From positions 1 to 32,415 of the forward strand of contig WJMK01000041.1 in the NCBI GenBank assembly GCA_014727975.1: a stretch of DNA of 32,415 bases, given 5' to 3'. Below, one piece after another: positions 2,152 to 31,042 of the stretch. Origin of the DNA: Microcaldota archaeon (GTDB lineage Archaea; Micrarchaeota; Micrarchaeia; Anstonellales; Bilamarchaeaceae). The translations under genes were made by a program, and so were the position numbers. The stretch's first letter is position 1; every line of letters starts with the position of its first letter. Under the pieces are notes generated by a model. That model saw nothing but the letters and a program-made list of their open reading frames with translations. It did no database searches and was not told the origin of the DNA.

Positions 2152-2412
2152 CTATTTGGGCAGATGCTTATAGGATTTTTTGCGGTGCTCTATTGTCATT
2201 ACCAGCAACATCCCCTCTTCAGTTTTCAGCTCGATTATGATTCTTTGGTCCCCTGCCCTCAAACTATAATATGGAGATCCTACGAGCCTTTTTAGGAAAT
2301 GTGCTGGCCGTATCCTGCACCTCTCCAAGGCCGAAATTATTCTTCCTTGGTCTTCCTTTCCCAATTTTGCAAAAAGTTTCTTTGCTTCATCTGAAAAGAG
2401 CACAGAGTACAT
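2152..2412 (-). CDS. RelE/ParE-superfamily toxin (mRNA interferase type)
   Basis: RelE-like fold motifs: YSVLFSDEAKKLFAKL...LVGSPYYSLRAGDQRIIIELK...VMTIEHRKKSYK; directly follows a small antitoxin ORF. Confidence 0.85.
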   Translation of the reverse strand: MYSVLFSDEAKKLFAKLGKEDQGRIISALERCRIRPAHFLKRLVGSPYYSLRAGDQRIIIELKTEEGMLLVMTIEHRKKSYKHLPK

Positions 2413-2633
2413 CAGAGTCCGAACTCCTTCTTTACTGATTCAAGGCTGTGCACGCGACCTGCCGTTACATCCTTTTCTGCTCTTGCCAGGGATTCCTTGG
2501 TTTCAGCTGAAAGCTCAGAAACATCTTCAAGAAGGTCTTCAATTACCTCTTCATATGTCTCACGCTCATAAAGCTTTCTTTTTTTGAGCTTCTCCAAAAG
2601 CTCTTCTGAAACCTGGATAGAAGTATTTGCCAT
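2412..2633 (-). CDS. Antitoxin partner of the RelE-type toxin
   Basis: 73-aa ORF with ribbon-helix-helix-like N-terminus (ANTSIQVSEELLEKLKKRKLYERETYEEVIEDLLED); stop overlaps toxin start. Confidence 0.8.
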   Translation of the reverse strand: MANTSIQVSEELLEKLKKRKLYERETYEEVIEDLLEDVSELSAETKESLARAEKDVTAGRVHSLESVKKEFGL

Positions 2634-3674: not shown

Positions 3675-4627
3675 ACCTCATTTATTTTCCTGATTAAAAC
3701 TTCTATGCATTTGTCCAGGGTTTCTCCTGGCCTTGCCTTGGAGGAGCAGCCTGCAGCTTTTGCGTGCCCGCCGCCTCCGCCCCCAAGCTCTTCTGCAGCC
3801 TCCTTCATTATCTCATTCATCATAAATGGGACATGCTTGCGCGCCCTGGAGGAAACCCTGCTTTCCTTCACTTCATCCTTCCATTTTGCAACAAATGCAA
3901 TGTCCGCAAACTCGGAAAGAGAAGAAGAAACAAGGGACTCATGCGCAGGCACAACAGAAGTAACAACCGCATACCCTCCGTGCATCTGGATGCGCATATT
4001 CTTGAACGCCTCCAGCACCGTAAGCTTATTTTCCATATCAAGCTCGGGCTCTGCATCCTCAAGCATTTCAGAGTATTCCTTTCCGGAAATCCGGATCATT
4101 TTAGCAAGCATTTCAAATGTGTGCGCACGGGCAGACTTGAACCTTGCAGTATCCGAAATAATTGCAACCCCAAGCGCAAACGCAACCTCTTCAGAAACCT
4201 CAGGGAGCAGCTCCCCGAATATTTCCGCAGTGGAGGGCGCATCCTCATCCACAATCATGAATTCAGCTGAAAGGGCATTTTCTGATTTGTGGTGGTGGTC
4301 CACAATAAGCCTGATGTCCCACCCCTTTGCTTCCTCCAGCAAAACAGAGGTAGCGCAATCCACGCTCACCAGCCCCTCAAATTCCCCCTTGTCCAGCTTC
4401 CCAAGCTTTTCCACTCTAAGCCCAAGCTTCTCAGCAAAGGCTTTTGCAGGTGCGTCCATCTTGTCCGGGCACGCAACTACTCCATTAGGAAGCACGCTTT
4501 TTACTGCAATGCAGGAGCAGAGCGCATCCAGGTCAAAGTTCGAGTGGGAAGTGACAACCAGTTTTGCATCCTTGTATTTTTCAAGAAAAGAGAGAAATTT
4601 CTTCCTCTTTTCCTCAGGATGCTTCAT
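3671..4627 (-). CDS. DHH/DHHA1 family phosphoesterase
   Basis: SNFDLDALCS, VDHHHKSE and GGGGGGHAKAAG motifs. Start placed at MKHPEEKRKK, overlapping the prefoldin stop. Confidence 0.88.
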   Translation of the reverse strand: MKHPEEKRKKFLSFLEKYKDAKLVVTSHSNFDLDALCSCIAVKSVLPNGVVACPDKMDAPAKAFAEKLGLRVEKLGKLDKGEFEGLVSVDCATSVLLEEAKGWDIRLIVDHHHKSENALSAEFMIVDEDAPSTAEIFGELLPEVSEEVAFALGVAIISDTARFKSARAHTFEMLAKMIRISGKEYSEMLEDAEPELDMENKLTVLEAFKNMRIQMHGGYAVVTSVVPAHESLVSSSLSEFADIAFVAKWKDEVKESRVSSRARKHVPFMMNEIMKEAAEELGGGGGGHAKAAGCSSKARPGETLDKCIEVLIRKINEV

Positions 4628-4967
4628 CGGATGAACCCATCTCTTCCTGGAGCTTCTTCTGAAGCCTCTGGAGCTCACCGCGGAGCTTTCCTTCCTGCTC
4701 CTCAAGGGTTTTCATCCTTCCTTCCATAAGGGTTTTCTTTTCTTCAAGTTCGGATTTTGCATCCTTTGCAGAGCTCTTGATCATCACGTTACCGATTGTC
4801 TTGTAGACTTCCTCTTCTTCATTTGCTTTCCCGAGCTCTTCCAGCGCAAGCCCGATTTCCCCGAGCTGTACCTGGATTTGCTGCTTCTGCATCATTACTG
4901 CCTGCATCTGCCTTTCAAAGTTCTGCAGCCTGATGATTTCCTTTTGTATTTCTTCGTTTTCTGCCAT
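4614..4967 (-). CDS. pfdB: Prefoldin subunit beta
   Basis: Coiled-coil/beta-hairpin/coiled-coil protein: NEEIQKEIIRLQNFERQMQAVMMQKQQIQVQLGEIGLALEEL...EEVYKTIGNVMIK; conserved synteny. Confidence 0.92.
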   Translation of the reverse strand: MAENEEIQKEIIRLQNFERQMQAVMMQKQQIQVQLGEIGLALEELGKANEEEEVYKTIGNVMIKSSAKDAKSELEEKKTLMEGRMKTLEEQEGKLRGELQRLQKKLQEEMGSSDEAS

Positions 4968-4968
4968 T

Positions 4969-5199
4969 CTAAACACCTAGTTCTTCTATAACTTTTACAT
5001 GCCTCAGGCAGCTGTTTGCAGCCGCCCGCAGGGCTACTGTGTCTGTTGCGGAAATCTCCACAACAAGTTCCTTCCCATCAACCGAGACTTTCACTTCCGA
5101 ACGCCCGGTTTCCGGTCCCCCCTTCCCAAGGGCCTTCTTTGCCTCAAGCGCTTTTCTGGCGCTTGGGAAAGAGAACCTTAGTTTTCCCTCGCATTCCAT
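4969..5199 (-). CDS. pcc1: KEOPS complex subunit Pcc1
   Basis: Small ORF MECEGKLRFSFPSARKALEAKKAL...VVEISATDTVALRAAANSCLRHVKVIEE; sits between rpo12 and prefoldin beta as in other archaea. Confidence 0.85.
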   Translation of the reverse strand: MECEGKLRFSFPSARKALEAKKALGKGGPETGRSEVKVSVDGKELVVEISATDTVALRAAANSCLRHVKVIEELGV

Positions 5200-5206
5200 G
5201 TGCTCC

Positions 5207-5344
5207 CTAATCTGTTCCCATGTCCTTTGCAATGGGGGGCCTTGCCTTGAACAGGACCTTTGCGCCAGTGGAGGGGAATTCAAAGGTCTTGAGGCTTGAA
5301 ATCATTACCTTGTTTCCGGTTTCCCATTCTGTGTATTCTCCCAT
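5207..5344 (-). CDS. rpo12: DNA-directed RNA polymerase subunit Rpo12 (P), divergent, no cysteines
   Basis: Read manually from the reverse strand (below the ORF-track length cutoff): MGEYTEWETGNKVMISSLKTFEFPSTGAKVLFKARPPIAKDMGTD*. Matches the Rpo12 pattern Y-x-C-x2-C-G-K...CPxCGxKVLFKxRPP except at the Cys positions; lies exactly between rpl37Ae and pcc1. Confidence 0.85.
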   Translation of the reverse strand: MGEYTEWETGNKVMISSLKTFEFPSTGAKVLFKARPPIAKDMGTD

Positions 5345-5346
5345 GC

Positions 5347-5583
5347 TTATTCACCTGCCTCTTCCTTTGCAAGCATTCTCTTTGCGCTGTTTCCCACAGG
5401 GGTGTTGAGGCTGTATGCCCCACCTGCAATTTTTGCTCCGCAGGAGTTGCACTTCCAGAGCGCATAGGAAATCCTTTTTACGGATTTCTTGCCGCACTTG
5501 GGGCACTCATACGAATCCTTCTTCTTTTTTGTTGCAGCCCCTGCAAGCTTCCTTATCCTTCTTCCGTACCTTGGGCTCTTCAT
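5347..5583 (-). CDS. rpl37Ae: 50S ribosomal protein L37Ae (eL43)
   Basis: KSPRYGRRIRKLAGAATKKKKDSYECPKCGKKSVKRISYALWKCNSCGAKIAGGAYSLNTP with intact CxxC...CxxC. Confidence 0.95.
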   Translation of the reverse strand: MKSPRYGRRIRKLAGAATKKKKDSYECPKCGKKSVKRISYALWKCNSCGAKIAGGAYSLNTPVGNSAKRMLAKEEAGE

Positions 5584-5592
5584 CATAACCAC

Positions 5593-22989: not shown

Positions 22990-23086
22990 GGTCTTCACCT
23001 TTCCCACTTAGTGCACTTGGACTGGAATTCTGCATATAACTTTTTTAAGATATCCCAAGCTCAACTATACGGAATTCGTGATTAGG

Positions 23087-25535: not shown

Positions 25536-28500
25536 CTACCACTTGTATCCTCCAAACAGGAAGAAACCTCCTTCAAGCTCCTTTACCTTGCTCGGGTCAA
25601 GCTCCCCTGTGCGGTCCCTGAAAACCCTTTCTATGCTTCCGATTACTCCTCTTCCTCCAACATACCAGGTGTCTGTGCTGTCAGATGTTTTTACCTCCGC
25701 ACCAAACTGGTCTTTTGTTTCCTCATAATGCGGGCGGGCTGCTCCCCTCTGGATTGCTTCCAGCTCCCTTCTCATGTACTCCAGGTCCACGGTGAATGCT
25801 ACCCCGGATTTCCCTACCCACATCAGCCTTGTGCCTGCCCCGTACCTGTTTATGTCCAGGTCCTCCTTAATCTGGTAGTTGTTTGTTCCCTGCTCCTTTG
25901 AAAGGACAACATATCCCTGTGCGCGGGACCCTTCCCACCATGGCATCCACCCAAGCACCATCGCTTCGTAAACATTTCTGGAAACATCCACCTCTTCTTC
26001 CCCTCCTTCTCCATATTCTACTTCCATTCCTGGCCCGTATTCAGCAGTGTAATCACTAAGCGTCCCTGTGCGCCACATTCCTCCCACTATTGCCCCGATT
26101 CCCCAGTCGTTCTCAGGAAGCATCGTAACACCCGCATCAAAGCTCGGGATTCCCTTGTAGCTCCTAAGGTCTTCCCTCCAGTATTCCCCCGCTGCAAGCG
26201 CAAGGATTACATGCGTGGTGGGCACAATTACCTTCCCTCCTGCAGAGCCCCATGGCGCAGGCTGTATGTTGAATGAAAGCATGAATGCATCATCTACTTC
26301 CACATAAGAGTTAATCAGCGCGCTCCACTCATCCGGGCCTCCCCAGATTGCCTCAATTCCTGCCTGGGTGGTTTCATCCAGCATGTCCCATTCAAGCCCG
26401 GCGGTTCCGAAATACCGCTGTGCTTCAATGAGCCCGAGTGCAGTCTGCATTGTCCTGAGAAGGTTCTGTTTCCTTTCCAGCTCCCTCATCCTGTCTCCTT
26501 TGCTCTGCTCCCTGTCCAGCCTTCCGGTGTACGCAAGGTCTTCGCTTGCCCTTGCATCCCGGAGCTCCTGCAGGTCTGCCTCAACTGTGCGCAGCTCGGC
26601 AACAACTCTCCTCAGGCTCCATCTTGTGCGCATAATCTGCCAGAGGCTGCTTGCCTGCGCCCTGCCATTGTCCCATTCGGCTGCAGTAAGCGCACCCGCA
26701 TGGCCGTACTGCCCGCTTCTTTCCTTTGCTTCGTCTGAGAGGTGTCTCCAGTCTGCAACAAGGAATGCATCCAGTACATCCGGGTCACGGAACATTGTCC
26801 CAAGCAGCCCTGCGTTGCTTTCATCCTCCCTGATGTTTGCCATTGCAAGGGTGTAAAGCTCATTGTTCCCGGGCAGCTTTGGCACGTTTGCGCCCTGCCA
26901 TGCAAAAGTGTATTCCCTTACCCCATCTATCCAGGATTCTTCTGCTGCAAATGCCTCTTCTGCCCCCCTTCCCCCAAGTTTTATCTTTCCAACGCGGCCC
27001 ATTTCCCCCCCTGCAAGGTAAGTTTCTCTTTTCTCTCCAACTTCTTCTGCTTCCACTTCCCTTCCCACAAGGGTCACAAAACCAACAGCGTTCCGCATTC
27101 CCGAGAATCCCTTTTCATACATTGCACTTATTCCTCCTGCATATTCCTGCGCAATCCTTCCGGCATCGGTTTCTGTTTCAAGTGTTGGCAGCTGCGGAAG
27201 GACTCCGCCGCGGCCCCTCATTGCAGGCCTTCCGCCCGCATTGTAAATCCCTGCACCAACTACAGATGGCGCAGCAGGCGGAGGCGAACCCCCGCTGAAT
27301 ACATTTGTGAAATTAACTCCTACAAGGCATCCGTACACTCCCCAGTCCTGCTCCCCGGGAACCCTTTCTCCCTGGAGTTCCTCCCCTTCTTCAGTCTGGA
27401 CTCCCTCTACGCTTCCCATCTGGTACTTCTGCTCCCCGCTGAGCATCCTGAATGCACCATACTTTTCCCCTGGCCCGATCTGCAAACCGGTAAATAGGCG
27501 GTTAAGCTCTTCAGGCTCAATATCTATGTAACCTATCCTGTACCAGTCCCCTTTTATCCTTCCCCAGGTGTATCCCCTGAATTCCTTCCGGGTTTCTTCC
27601 TCGCCCGTGGTTTCAGTTTCCCCTCCGGAAGTTTCCCTAAGGTAGTTCTCATGCTCTTCCCAGGTAATCAACGTAACTCCATCTGTGTTGTAGGTGCGCG
27701 CATAGTGCTCCAGCCGTGTAATCAGAGCCTTATCTGTAACCTTGGTATATGTGCCCTCTTCAGGCACCTGCATCTGCGTTGGTGCAGGAGGGCCTTCCAT
27801 TTCAACAGTGTGCTCAGGCACTGTTTCCTCAGTTGTAGTTTCTGCCCAGGTTCCGGCTGCATATCCTGAAACTGAAAACCACCCAGGCGCAGTAATATCA
27901 TTGAAAAGCCCGTAAAGCGTATTCCTTTCGGATTCGCTCATGGTTTCATAAGGGGGGACAAATTCTTCCCCTTCCCCATGCGCTTCTGCCCGGCTCCTTT
28001 CCTCCCCTCTATCTATAGTGTGCACAACTCCTGCCTGGGTTTCCGGGCCGAATACATATCCCCTCTCCATCCCCCTGTATTCTTTTTCTGTTTCCTTCCC
28101 GGTTTCATCTTTCACTTCCCCCCCATATCCCTTTCCGTATGCGCTGACTGCCCCCCGCTCTATTTCCATTCCCGGCACATACCTGGGAACTCCTCTCACT
28201 TCAGAAAGCAGCTCCATAAGTCTGCTAAGGGAACCCGGGATAAAGCTGTTCACAGAATATGTCCTGCGCGGAATCATCTTTGCCTTTTTGGGAGTAAAGA
28301 AATCAAAGAAATATTCATGGAGCGAAGGCTCCCTTGACCACACCTGCGCAAACTCCTCGCTTGTGGAGGTCATGAGCTGCTCCATTATCTGCTGTGCTTC
28401 TGCTTCATACTCCGGGCTGATGTCTGAAAGGGGCGAGAAAGCAGAGCGCGCAAGCCTTGCAAGCTCATATGCCCTCCTTTCCATAGCATCGGTTATGCTT

Positions 28501-30944
28501 GAGTCCTGCGGAGCCCTGTAAACCGGAATTTCCCCGGGCCTGATTGCCCCGCTCCTCCTTGCATAAGTGTGCATGAACCTCCTGAGTATTTCACCCATGC
28601 TCCTCACCGCAAACATGTCTTTGTTCATGTAAGTGCCCATGTAGCCGGATGCCTGCGGCCTAAGGAGCATAAGGTCCTCCAGCACCCGCAGGTTGTCATT
28701 CATCGCTTCTGCAAATGCAAGCGGAATCTGGACCATTGTATAATATGAAAGCACTCTTCCGGAACCGATATCCGCATACCGTTGGGTATTGGAAATCTGG
28801 TTTGTTGTGCTGTTCACTGTGTTAAGGATTGTAACGACATCATTGTAGCTGCTTGAGTATTCCATGGCCATGGGAACTGCATTAAGCATGAATCCCAGGT
28901 GCCCTGCCCTTCCCATGTACAAGAGCTGGGTTTCCATCACATCCATTACCTTCTGGTTCGCCTCTGCCTTGAGCGCAGGGTTGTTTTCCAGGTCCGCTAT
29001 TTCCACGGTCCCGTCTACAGGTGCAGCAGGGTCGGTGAGCTGGAGCTCCAGGGTAGTGCTTTCCATTGCAGGCCAGGTGTTTGTGCAGAATGCATACTGG
29101 GTAACCAGGTCCATCTTGGAAAGGAACGAGCGGGGCGCATACGCAAGCCGCTCAGTGGAGGCCTCTTCCTCCCCTGTTCCTTCAAGAAGGTCGTCAAGCT
29201 CCTTAAGGTCTTTTCCGCCTTCCATTGCACCAATGAAGTGGAGCTTTGCATCAGTGAATTTCTTGTTTCCGAGCACATAGCTGTGCAGCTTTGCAAGCTT
29301 CACGATGCTTCTCTCCTCCGCAAGAAATTCTTCCCTTTCTCCGGGCGGGACAAGGTAATGGTGCTTCCTTGAGCCCACTGGGGAGAGGTCCATTTCTGCC
29401 ATCGCCCCCCAGTTGTATGCGAATACAGACTCAATCATGTGCTGGGCAACCCCTTCGTTCCTCCAGAGTTTTTCTGCAATTGTAAATGCTCCTGCTTCCA
29501 TGCCTTTTGAGTATTTGCTTCTGAGCTTGTCAATTTCCTCCTGGCTTTCCGCGCTCACCACTTCCAGGAAAACTCCCTGCAGCCGCGAATTCCACACGCT
29601 GGGGTCAACGCTTGAGGAAAGCTCCATATAACTGTTGAATGCGTTTGTAACCTCGCTTATGGATTTTTCCATCTTTTCAACATCGAATCCATCGGGGCCT
29701 ACAAACTCCCCGAGCACCACAAGCATTTCCGAAATGTGCTCCGCACTCCCGAATTCAATAGGAATATTGAAATTTATGTTGTGGTCCTTGAAGAACTTGT
29801 TAAGCTCGCTAAGGCTGGTTTCCCTTGCCGCAGAAAGGATTATTTCCCTTCTTTCCTCATTGCTGATTCCCCTGGAGGCTTCTGCAATAATCCTGTTTCC
29901 CTCTTCCGTGCTTACGCCTTTTGCTTCTTCCTCTGCTTCAGCAATGAGCTTACTGTTCATCCTGCGTATTTTTGAAAAGGGCCCCTTTGAGATTTCCCCG
30001 TCACCGAAAAGCTTGTCCAGCTCATTCATCACATATCGCTGGAATTCATCCTGCACCTCCCCGTCCCTTATGCTGTGGTAAGATGAAAGGAATTTGTCAA
30101 GCGCCTGCGGGTCCCTTGCAATTACTTCAAAATTGATTACTGCTTCAAAAAGATACTTCATCTGCTTTTGCATTTCACTTTGCAGCTCTTCTGAAACAGG
30201 CTCCGCAGGCTTTGCAAGTCCCTCTTCCCTCACAGGGGTAACTTCCCTCAGCCCCGGCTCCATATGCTCCTGTTCATAAACTTCTGCAGGCACGCCCTGT
30301 GCAAGGACTGCCCTCAGGAAACCATACTCATCGTCCTTCAGCATGTCTCTTCTTCCAAAAACAGGGGTTGCCCCTTCCAGCTTTTCGTATTTAATCAGCA
30401 CGTCCCCCAGGACACCTGCCATTCCATATTCTTTAGGGATGGAGCCCAATTCTGCATCTGCCTTTATCATTTCCCTGAGTGCGTTTGCAACTTCCATGTA
30501 CCTGTTTTTCCCGTATTCTTCCTCCAGCTCCTGCTCCAGCCTTTTTGTTATTTTTACTTCGAGATATCTGCTGTGCGGGTTTTTGTTGAATATTCTCAGG
30601 CATTTGCCCAGCTCATCAAGCATTTCCCTGTTTTCCGGGTTGTCCAGGCCCATGCTGCCAAGCTGAGCCTTTGCATTTTTTATAATAGAATCAATTTGAG
30701 CTTCAATTCCTGCTTTTGCTTTCTTCTTCTGAACCATCTCTCCACCATCCCTTGCTGAATAATTTGTGGACTTATTAGTATTTATATCTTGCGCAGATGC
30801 GCCGAAGGCAGCGCCAAATATCCCTGCAGCAAGCACCCCTGAGAAAAACGTTTTGGCCCTGAGCCTTGCCCTCCCAAGCCTGGCCGAGGCTGGCGGCTTC
30901 TGTGCATTAACCAGCTGGATATCCTTTACTCTGCGCCATTTCAT
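25536..30944 (-). CDS. Giant secreted / cell-envelope protein (~1800 aa) with beta-rich C-terminus
   Basis: Single uninterrupted ORF; signal-like AKTFFSGVLAAGIFGAAFGASAQ; C-terminus ...DTWYVGGRGVIGSIERVF...ELEGGFFLFGGYKW. Start at MKWRRVKD (30944) preferred over the TTG at 30983. Confidence 0.75.
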   Translation of the reverse strand: MKWRRVKDIQLVNAQKPPASARLGRARLRAKTFFSGVLAAGIFGAAFGASAQDINTNKSTNYSARDGGEMVQKKKAKAGIEAQIDSIIKNAKAQLGSMGLDNPENREMLDELGKCLRIFNKNPHSRYLEVKITKRLEQELEEEYGKNRYMEVANALREMIKADAELGSIPKEYGMAGVLGDVLIKYEKLEGATPVFGRRDMLKDDEYGFLRAVLAQGVPAEVYEQEHMEPGLREVTPVREEGLAKPAEPVSEELQSEMQKQMKYLFEAVINFEVIARDPQALDKFLSSYHSIRDGEVQDEFQRYVMNELDKLFGDGEISKGPFSKIRRMNSKLIAEAEEEAKGVSTEEGNRIIAEASRGISNEERREIILSAARETSLSELNKFFKDHNINFNIPIEFGSAEHISEMLVVLGEFVGPDGFDVEKMEKSISEVTNAFNSYMELSSSVDPSVWNSRLQGVFLEVVSAESQEEIDKLRSKYSKGMEAGAFTIAEKLWRNEGVAQHMIESVFAYNWGAMAEMDLSPVGSRKHHYLVPPGEREEFLAEERSIVKLAKLHSYVLGNKKFTDAKLHFIGAMEGGKDLKELDDLLEGTGEEEASTERLAYAPRSFLSKMDLVTQYAFCTNTWPAMESTTLELQLTDPAAPVDGTVEIADLENNPALKAEANQKVMDVMETQLLYMGRAGHLGFMLNAVPMAMEYSSSYNDVVTILNTVNSTTNQISNTQRYADIGSGRVLSYYTMVQIPLAFAEAMNDNLRVLEDLMLLRPQASGYMGTYMNKDMFAVRSMGEILRRFMHTYARRSGAIRPGEIPVYRAPQDSSITDAMERRAYELARLARSAFSPLSDISPEYEAEAQQIMEQLMTSTSEEFAQVWSREPSLHEYFFDFFTPKKAKMIPRRTYSVNSFIPGSLSRLMELLSEVRGVPRYVPGMEIERGAVSAYGKGYGGEVKDETGKETEKEYRGMERGYVFGPETQAGVVHTIDRGEERSRAEAHGEGEEFVPPYETMSESERNTLYGLFNDITAPGWFSVSGYAAGTWAETTTEETVPEHTVEMEGPPAPTQMQVPEEGTYTKVTDKALITRLEHYARTYNTDGVTLITWEEHENYLRETSGGETETTGEEETRKEFRGYTWGRIKGDWYRIGYIDIEPEELNRLFTGLQIGPGEKYGAFRMLSGEQKYQMGSVEGVQTEEGEELQGERVPGEQDWGVYGCLVGVNFTNVFSGGSPPPAAPSVVGAGIYNAGGRPAMRGRGGVLPQLPTLETETDAGRIAQEYAGGISAMYEKGFSGMRNAVGFVTLVGREVEAEEVGEKRETYLAGGEMGRVGKIKLGGRGAEEAFAAEESWIDGVREYTFAWQGANVPKLPGNNELYTLAMANIREDESNAGLLGTMFRDPDVLDAFLVADWRHLSDEAKERSGQYGHAGALTAAEWDNGRAQASSLWQIMRTRWSLRRVVAELRTVEADLQELRDARASEDLAYTGRLDREQSKGDRMRELERKQNLLRTMQTALGLIEAQRYFGTAGLEWDMLDETTQAGIEAIWGGPDEWSALINSYVEVDDAFMLSFNIQPAPWGSAGGKVIVPTTHVILALAAGEYWREDLRSYKGIPSFDAGVTMLPENDWGIGAIVGGMWRTGTLSDYTAEYGPGMEVEYGEGGEEEVDVSRNVYEAMVLGWMPWWEGSRAQGYVVLSKEQGTNNYQIKEDLDINRYGAGTRLMWVGKSGVAFTVDLEYMRRELEAIQRGAARPHYEETKDQFGAEVKTSDSTDTWYVGGRGVIGSIERVFRDRTGELDPSKVKELEGGFFLFGGYKW

Positions 30945-31042
30945 TTTCCCACTTTCTTTTGGCCGACATAAACTTTTATTCAAGTGTCACTAAATGTCTA
31001 GAATTAGGAAAACTTTTGCCCACTAAGGGTTTTTAAAGCAAT

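Follow-up and report, generated by a model that had tools for sequence, protein, structure and literature searches.

Rpo12 and the rpo12 locus of the window

The zinc ribbon of Rpo12/Rpb12 is common to archaeal RNA polymerase (RNAP) and all three nuclear RNA polymerases. It is considered typical of the subunit in archaea and eukaryotes alike, and mutation of its cysteines can be harmful or lethal. Several cysteines of yeast Rpb12 are individually dispensable (Rubbi et al. 1999, cited in PMC2680338); to our knowledge no natural eukaryotic Rpb12 lacks the CX2C...CX2C motif, only laboratory mutants being without it. The Pyrococcus subunit, P, was studied by Reich et al. 2009 (PMC2680338): RNAP without P does not form stable open complexes, a C27/30S mutant of P is loosely bound and has 14% single-round activity, and a 17-residue C-terminal peptide containing no zinc cysteine gives ~80% single-round activity. 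We found no earlier report of a zinc-free Rpo12 in the open-access literature searched, papers outside it not being covered; a survey published in 2026 on the small subunits of archaeal RNAP (PMC13257274) mentions Rpo12 in its introduction only and names neither zinc nor Micrarchaeota.

We now report an Rpo12 (Rpb12, subunit P) orthologue without any of the four zinc cysteines, encoded at 5207-5344(-) of the window, by which we mean the whole 32,415-nucleotide stretch of DNA analysed (contig WJMK01000041.1). The ORF has 45 codons, with an ATG start and a TAG stop. The source genome belongs to a family, f1, which we take to be Ca. Bilamarchaeaceae of the order Ca. Anstonellales, because the Rpo12 sequence of another f1 genome (G073) is identical to that of isolate LFW-283_2 (L148), which is Ca. 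Bilamarchaeum dharawalense (PMC8561730). The relatives that carry names, traced through the adjacent L37Ae, are Candidatus Micrarchaeota MAGs. A second family of the same order, f8, is also discussed below. The features of the locus are as follows.

5207..5344, (-): rpo12 (rpoP), zinc-free RNA polymerase subunit Rpo12, 45 aa, MGEYTEWETGNKVMISSLKTFEFPSTGAKVLFKARPPIAKDMGTD
5315..5329, (-): first former zinc knuckle, codons 6-10 (E6 W E T9 G10), with E at Cys1 and T at Cys2; position from reading frame
5264..5278, (-): second former zinc knuckle, codons 23-27 (F23 P S T26 G27), with F at Cys3 and T at Cys4; position from reading frame
5210..5260, (-): C-terminal tail, codons 29-45, KVLFKARPPIAKDMGTD; its Pyrococcus counterpart is sufficient in vitro (Reich et al. 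2009, PMC2680338)
5345..5362, (-): Shine-Dalgarno-like GGTGA, directly 5' of the rpo12 ATG, overlapping the 3' end of the L37Ae gene
5347..5592, (-): ribosomal protein L37Ae, upstream neighbour of rpo12, four zinc cysteines kept (PF01780, E 3e-23)
4969..5208, (-): KEOPS subunit Pcc1, downstream neighbour of rpo12, start site uncertain (PF09341, E 9e-15)
4614..4976, (-): prefoldin subunit beta, same cluster, after Pcc1

Only 2 bases separate the L37Ae gene from rpo12, and two exosome-type RNase PH genes lie upstream in the same cluster. The adjacency of rpo12 to the L37Ae gene is found in genomes with the four cysteines (Cys4) and without them (Cys-less) alike, with one copy per genome. The initial annotation, made before any database search, had already given this ORF, its coordinates and its place in an rpl37Ae-rpo12-pcc1 slot, all of which held exactly.

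Some other features of these regions may be recorded here. In f8 and in some f1 genomes (L231, L234, L240), though not in the window, rpo12 and pcc1 are separated by an extra ORF that on visual inspection resembles a Brix-domain protein. Elsewhere in the window, at 2152-2412(-) and 2412-2633(-), a ParE-like toxin ORF (PF05016, E 1.3e-4) comes directly after a DUF7557 ORF, and the two, which adjoin an adenylosuccinate synthetase gene, may be a type II toxin-antitoxin pair; an ORF of 1815 residues at 25536-30983(-) is without a Pfam match at E 0.001.

An Rpo12 orthologue without the zinc cysteines

A Pfam search with the window's single sequence gave no match, and against NCBIfam that sequence alone reached only E 0.035, to RNAP subunit P, with scores far below the cut-offs. 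A Cys-less profile searched against the PDB had Thermococcus kodakarensis Rpo12 (4qiw_P, E 6e-4) as its best match and Pyrococcus furiosus Rpo12 (8cro_P, E 9e-3) as its second. When aligned by hhalign with the Cys4 Rpo12 of Micrarchaeota, Cys-less Rpo12 was matched over all 45 columns (98.6% probability, E 7e-16), with E6, T9, F23 and T26 set opposite the four zinc cysteines. NCBIfam matched 36 of 40 Cys-less members, weakly, and every matched model was RNAP subunit P, while the Pfam Rpo12 model PF03604 matched 0/40 Cys-less members as compared to 27/28 Cys4 members. Run on the window's genome, a Cys4-only profile had as its best match the C-terminal half of this same zinc-free ORF. The initial annotation had proposed an Rpo12 with E, T, F and T at the cysteine positions and with the flanking turns and C-terminal motif retained; the identity is upheld by the profile-profile alignment and by the PDB and NCBIfam matches, and the particulars also held.

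A template-free AlphaFold2 model produced from Cys-less rows only is of modest confidence (pLDDT 75). In a Foldseek search of the PDB with this model, ranks 1-12 were all Rpo12/Rpb12 (TM ~0.55), at a best E-value of only 0.79, as compared to a better 0.03 for a Cys4 control model; because the protein is tiny, these E-values are not significant alone. We class the window's protein as a zinc-free orthologue and not as a canonical zinc-ribbon Rpo12, because PF03604 is unmatched and all four cysteines are missing. Profile-based annotation would score the RNAPs of f1 and f8 as being without Rpo12: since Pfam misses 40/40 zinc-free members (and 1/28 Cys4 members), routine annotation would call the subunit absent.

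Searches of the window's genome with PF03604 and the Cys4-only profile retrieved no Cys4 Rpo12, and across the 43 f1 genomes none scores over the Pfam curated cut-off. Outside the rpo12 cluster, the Cys-rich candidate that comes closest is a 111-aa triple zinc-ribbon protein, which is unrelated. The window's genome is 88% complete, and the single-copy claim rests on the whole family, not on this genome alone. Cysteine motifs persist in other proteins: the window's L37Ae and aIF2beta keep CxxC...CxxC and an ABCE1-like ORF at 23078 starts with a cysteine-rich ferredoxin motif, so that the earlier claim of intact motifs in these three held. Those Rpo10 sequences of f1 and f8 that were read retain CxxC...CC, and the C-terminal ribbon of Rpo2 persists in those f1/f8 sequences that reach it, bar partial loss in one genome (G016). 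We therefore reject a general loss of RNAP zinc sites.

Two observations concern Rpo2 itself. In the G016 Rpo2 C-terminus (L297, f1), the second CxxC of the zinc ribbon is lost, alone among f1 genomes read. Rpo2 frames (loci L292-L319) are ~600-690 aa in most families (split B'/B''), and are 1064-1137 aa, unsplit or re-fused, in three f8 genomes: L299 (G083), L314 (G082) and L315 (G050).

Distribution, origin and constraint

Alignment of orthologues from related genomes, suggested in the initial annotation, found a homologue without zinc cysteines, in the L37Ae-rpo12 slot, in 43/43 f1 genomes and 10/10 f8 genomes read. The f1 count is well outside what chance would give. From the rest of the order, 29 of 31 other genomes were read and 29/29 are Cys4, as are all 18 families outside the order, each of which was sampled. 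Phylum-wide, 27 of 29 sampled families keep Cys4, the exceptions being f1 and f8. The 156 distinct sequences compared (Micrarchaeota plus outgroup) divide into 109 Cys4 and 47 Cys-less, with 0 intermediates. Almost all genomes compared are MAGs. In a tree of Rpo2, used as an independent marker, a branch supported at 100/99.9 has f1 and f8 together on one side, and the other orders lie on the Cys4 side; therefore there was one ancestral loss of the zinc cysteines, in the ancestor of f1 and its sister family f8, and independent losses in the two families are rejected.

The Cys-less profile was also run against 380 genomes of another archaeal phylum, labelled Nanoarchaeota, and all 20 matches were Cys4 Rpo12, so that no convergent Cys-less form appeared among them. 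This is a weak test, in that strongly diverged forms could escape it and, for L348 among the 20, only the second half was read. Among the other archaea compared, Ca. Altarchaeum (L151, L152) has an Rpo12 reading ...MKCIKCKTRGSD..., with a longer loop after the second knuckle than the rest.

The zinc-free Rpo12 is under purifying selection, with pairwise dN/dS of 0.03-0.19 among close relatives, where dS is unsaturated; a Shine-Dalgarno-like motif precedes rpo12 in 42/44. The initial annotation had allowed that a second Cys4 copy elsewhere, together with absence of purifying selection here, would refute its reading; both parts failed. The former cysteine positions have new occupants in the 36 distinct f1 sequences: D/E at position 6 (Cys1) in 30, T/S at position 9 (Cys2) in 35, and F at position 23 (Cys3) and T/S at position 26 (Cys4) in all 36. 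The f8 replacements are I/L at position 6, L/I at Cys3 and S at Cys4. Y4, G10, K19, F21 and P24 are near invariant in f1. At the turns, G10, P24 and G27 hardly vary, and the same holds for the tail R35-P36-P37...T44-D45 (in distinct f1 sequences, 36/36 for R35, P36, P37 and D45, and 35/36 for K33). Strong constraint of a new kind now acts on three of the former cysteine sites, so that “remodelled” describes the f1 ribbon better than “lost”, and we consider it very probable that the ribbon has been remodelled rather than neglected, though the absence of metal is inferred, with no metal data. The earlier statement that the zinc site is gone is thus refined: the change is old and clade-wide, not one genome's peculiarity, and three positions are newly constrained.

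Some branches have gone further. In genus g28, the most reduced one of f8, with genomes of 0.5-0.6 Mb, the L37Ae gene is followed by ORFs of 42-51 residues (e.g. MKYYLWPKLKEIEVDSLAEFSFAGVHILVKKKPDGPVEVSTD) that have no cysteine and in which only the tail end is recognisable; at five g28 loci (L235, L236, L237, L239 and L241) the rpo12 is extremely degenerate and recognised mainly by its E-[VI]-S-T-D end. In one f1 genome, G034, the first hairpin of Rpo12 is gone. The order of loss is zinc, then the N-terminal half, with the C-terminal tail staying. This natural series, from zinc-free ribbon to half-lost ribbon (G034) to almost only the tail (g28), mirrors the in vitro work of Reich et al. 2009.

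Interpretation and comparison with known systems

Several other explanations may be weighed. The Cys-less protein could be a zinc-sparing paralogue, kept for zinc limitation beside a normal Cys4 Rpo12 in the manner of bacterial C-/C+ ribosomal protein pairs. Such pairs do show the same pattern, a conserved fold with the cysteines missing. Yet no Cys4 partner was found in the window's genome (G000) or, over the curated cut-off, in the 43 f1 genomes, and zinc sparing is a poor explanation because the zinc sites of L37Ae, aIF2beta, Rpo10 and, mostly, Rpo2 persist; we regard it as very improbable. Just as hard to support is an alternative metal site in which cysteines give way to different ligands, such as D/E6 together with further carboxylates. 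The acidic residue at position 6 in 30/36 distinct f1 sequences favors it, but nowhere in the protein is a Cys or His conserved, T/S, F and T/S occupy positions 9, 23 and 26, and in f8 position 6 is I/L. The possibility that the rpo12 slot holds some small protein unrelated to Rpo12, or an ORF that is spurious or misassembled, can be virtually dismissed: the failure of PF03604 on all 40 Cys-less members speaks for it, but homologous sequence fills the same slot in >40 independent assemblies, its profile matches are only to Rpo12, and it is under purifying selection. Misassembly or a pseudogene in particular is ruled out by the >40 independent genomes and the low dN/dS.

A less remote alternative, though still an unlikely one, is that the subunit is degenerating toward loss, under relaxed constraint in an RNAP that no longer needs its N-terminal half. 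Most of that half has indeed been lost in g28 and G034. Against this, the former cysteine sites are fixed in f1 (F23 and T/S26 each 36/36), the five residues Y4, G10, K19, F21 and P24 are near invariant there, and dN/dS is low; therefore decay accounts for the extreme branches and not for the window's protein.

The reading we prefer, and think very likely, is that the window's ORF is a true Rpo12 and the sole one in this archaeon, zinc-free and inherited from the one loss in the f1/f8 ancestor; its lack of metal, its incorporation into RNAP and its mode of action are inferred. Under this reading the two zinc knuckles would now be beta turns that hold no metal (T-G and P-[ST]-[ST]-G), with F21 and F23 forming a new hydrophobic core in place of the zinc anchor and T9 and T/S26 making hydrogen-bonding turns. 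The zinc-free subunit would still dock between Rpo2 and Rpo3, and its tail, [KR]-[VIM]-L-x-K-x-R-P-P-[IV]-A-K-E-x-x-T-D, would support the open promoter complex; both steps are inferences, drawn from what is known of the family and from Reich et al. 2009, and there are no reconstitution data for the docking. The zinc ribbon would then be the anchoring half only, dispensable once another anchor had evolved and decaying fully in some descendants. Because simple Cys-to-Ser replacement harms the subunit (Reich et al. 2009), the native zinc-free form must have compensating changes, which we have not located; matching changes in Rpo2 and Rpo3 may possibly accompany the new anchor. A bolder version, which could as well prove wrong as right, holds that the zinc anchor of an essential subunit was replaced by a metal-free hydrophobic core with matching Rpo2/Rpo3 changes, and that the g28 RNAP runs on little beyond the Rpo12 C-terminal tail, a natural counterpart of the 17-residue peptide.

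The closest described relatives are the archaeal Rpo12/RpoP proteins (4qiw_P, 8cro_P), which the zinc-free form resembles in its length, in the G and P residues flanking the knuckles, in the K-x-L-x-K-x-R-P tail and in giving the best PDB matches by sequence and, at E-values not significant alone, by fold; within Micrarchaeota the gene neighbourhood is also common to both forms. It differs in that all four cysteines are replaced, with F23, T/S9 and T/S26 fixed instead, and it has two extra N-terminal residues as compared to Cys4 forms of the same order. Eukaryotic Rpb12/ABC10alpha (RPC10) is the same subunit, with a zinc ribbon and an essential C-terminal tail. Bacterial C- ribosomal proteins likewise have a zinc ribbon without cysteines and a retained role; however, they are usually zinc-regulated paralogues, whereas f1 Rpo12 has no second copy beside it and no change was seen in the other zinc proteins checked. 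A form that is natural, fixed and zinc-free allows the role of zinc (anchoring and folding) to be told apart from that of the subunit (open-complex support by the tail). It also bears, as evidence from evolution, on what was claimed in vitro in 2009: if the tail does the work, it should disappear last, and it does. The C27/30S mutant and the 17-aa peptide of Reich et al. 2009 are comparable zinc-less versions, the peptide showing that the tail suffices in vitro, but they were engineered and are partly defective, whereas the f1/f8 form is natural, ancient, fixed and under purifying selection.
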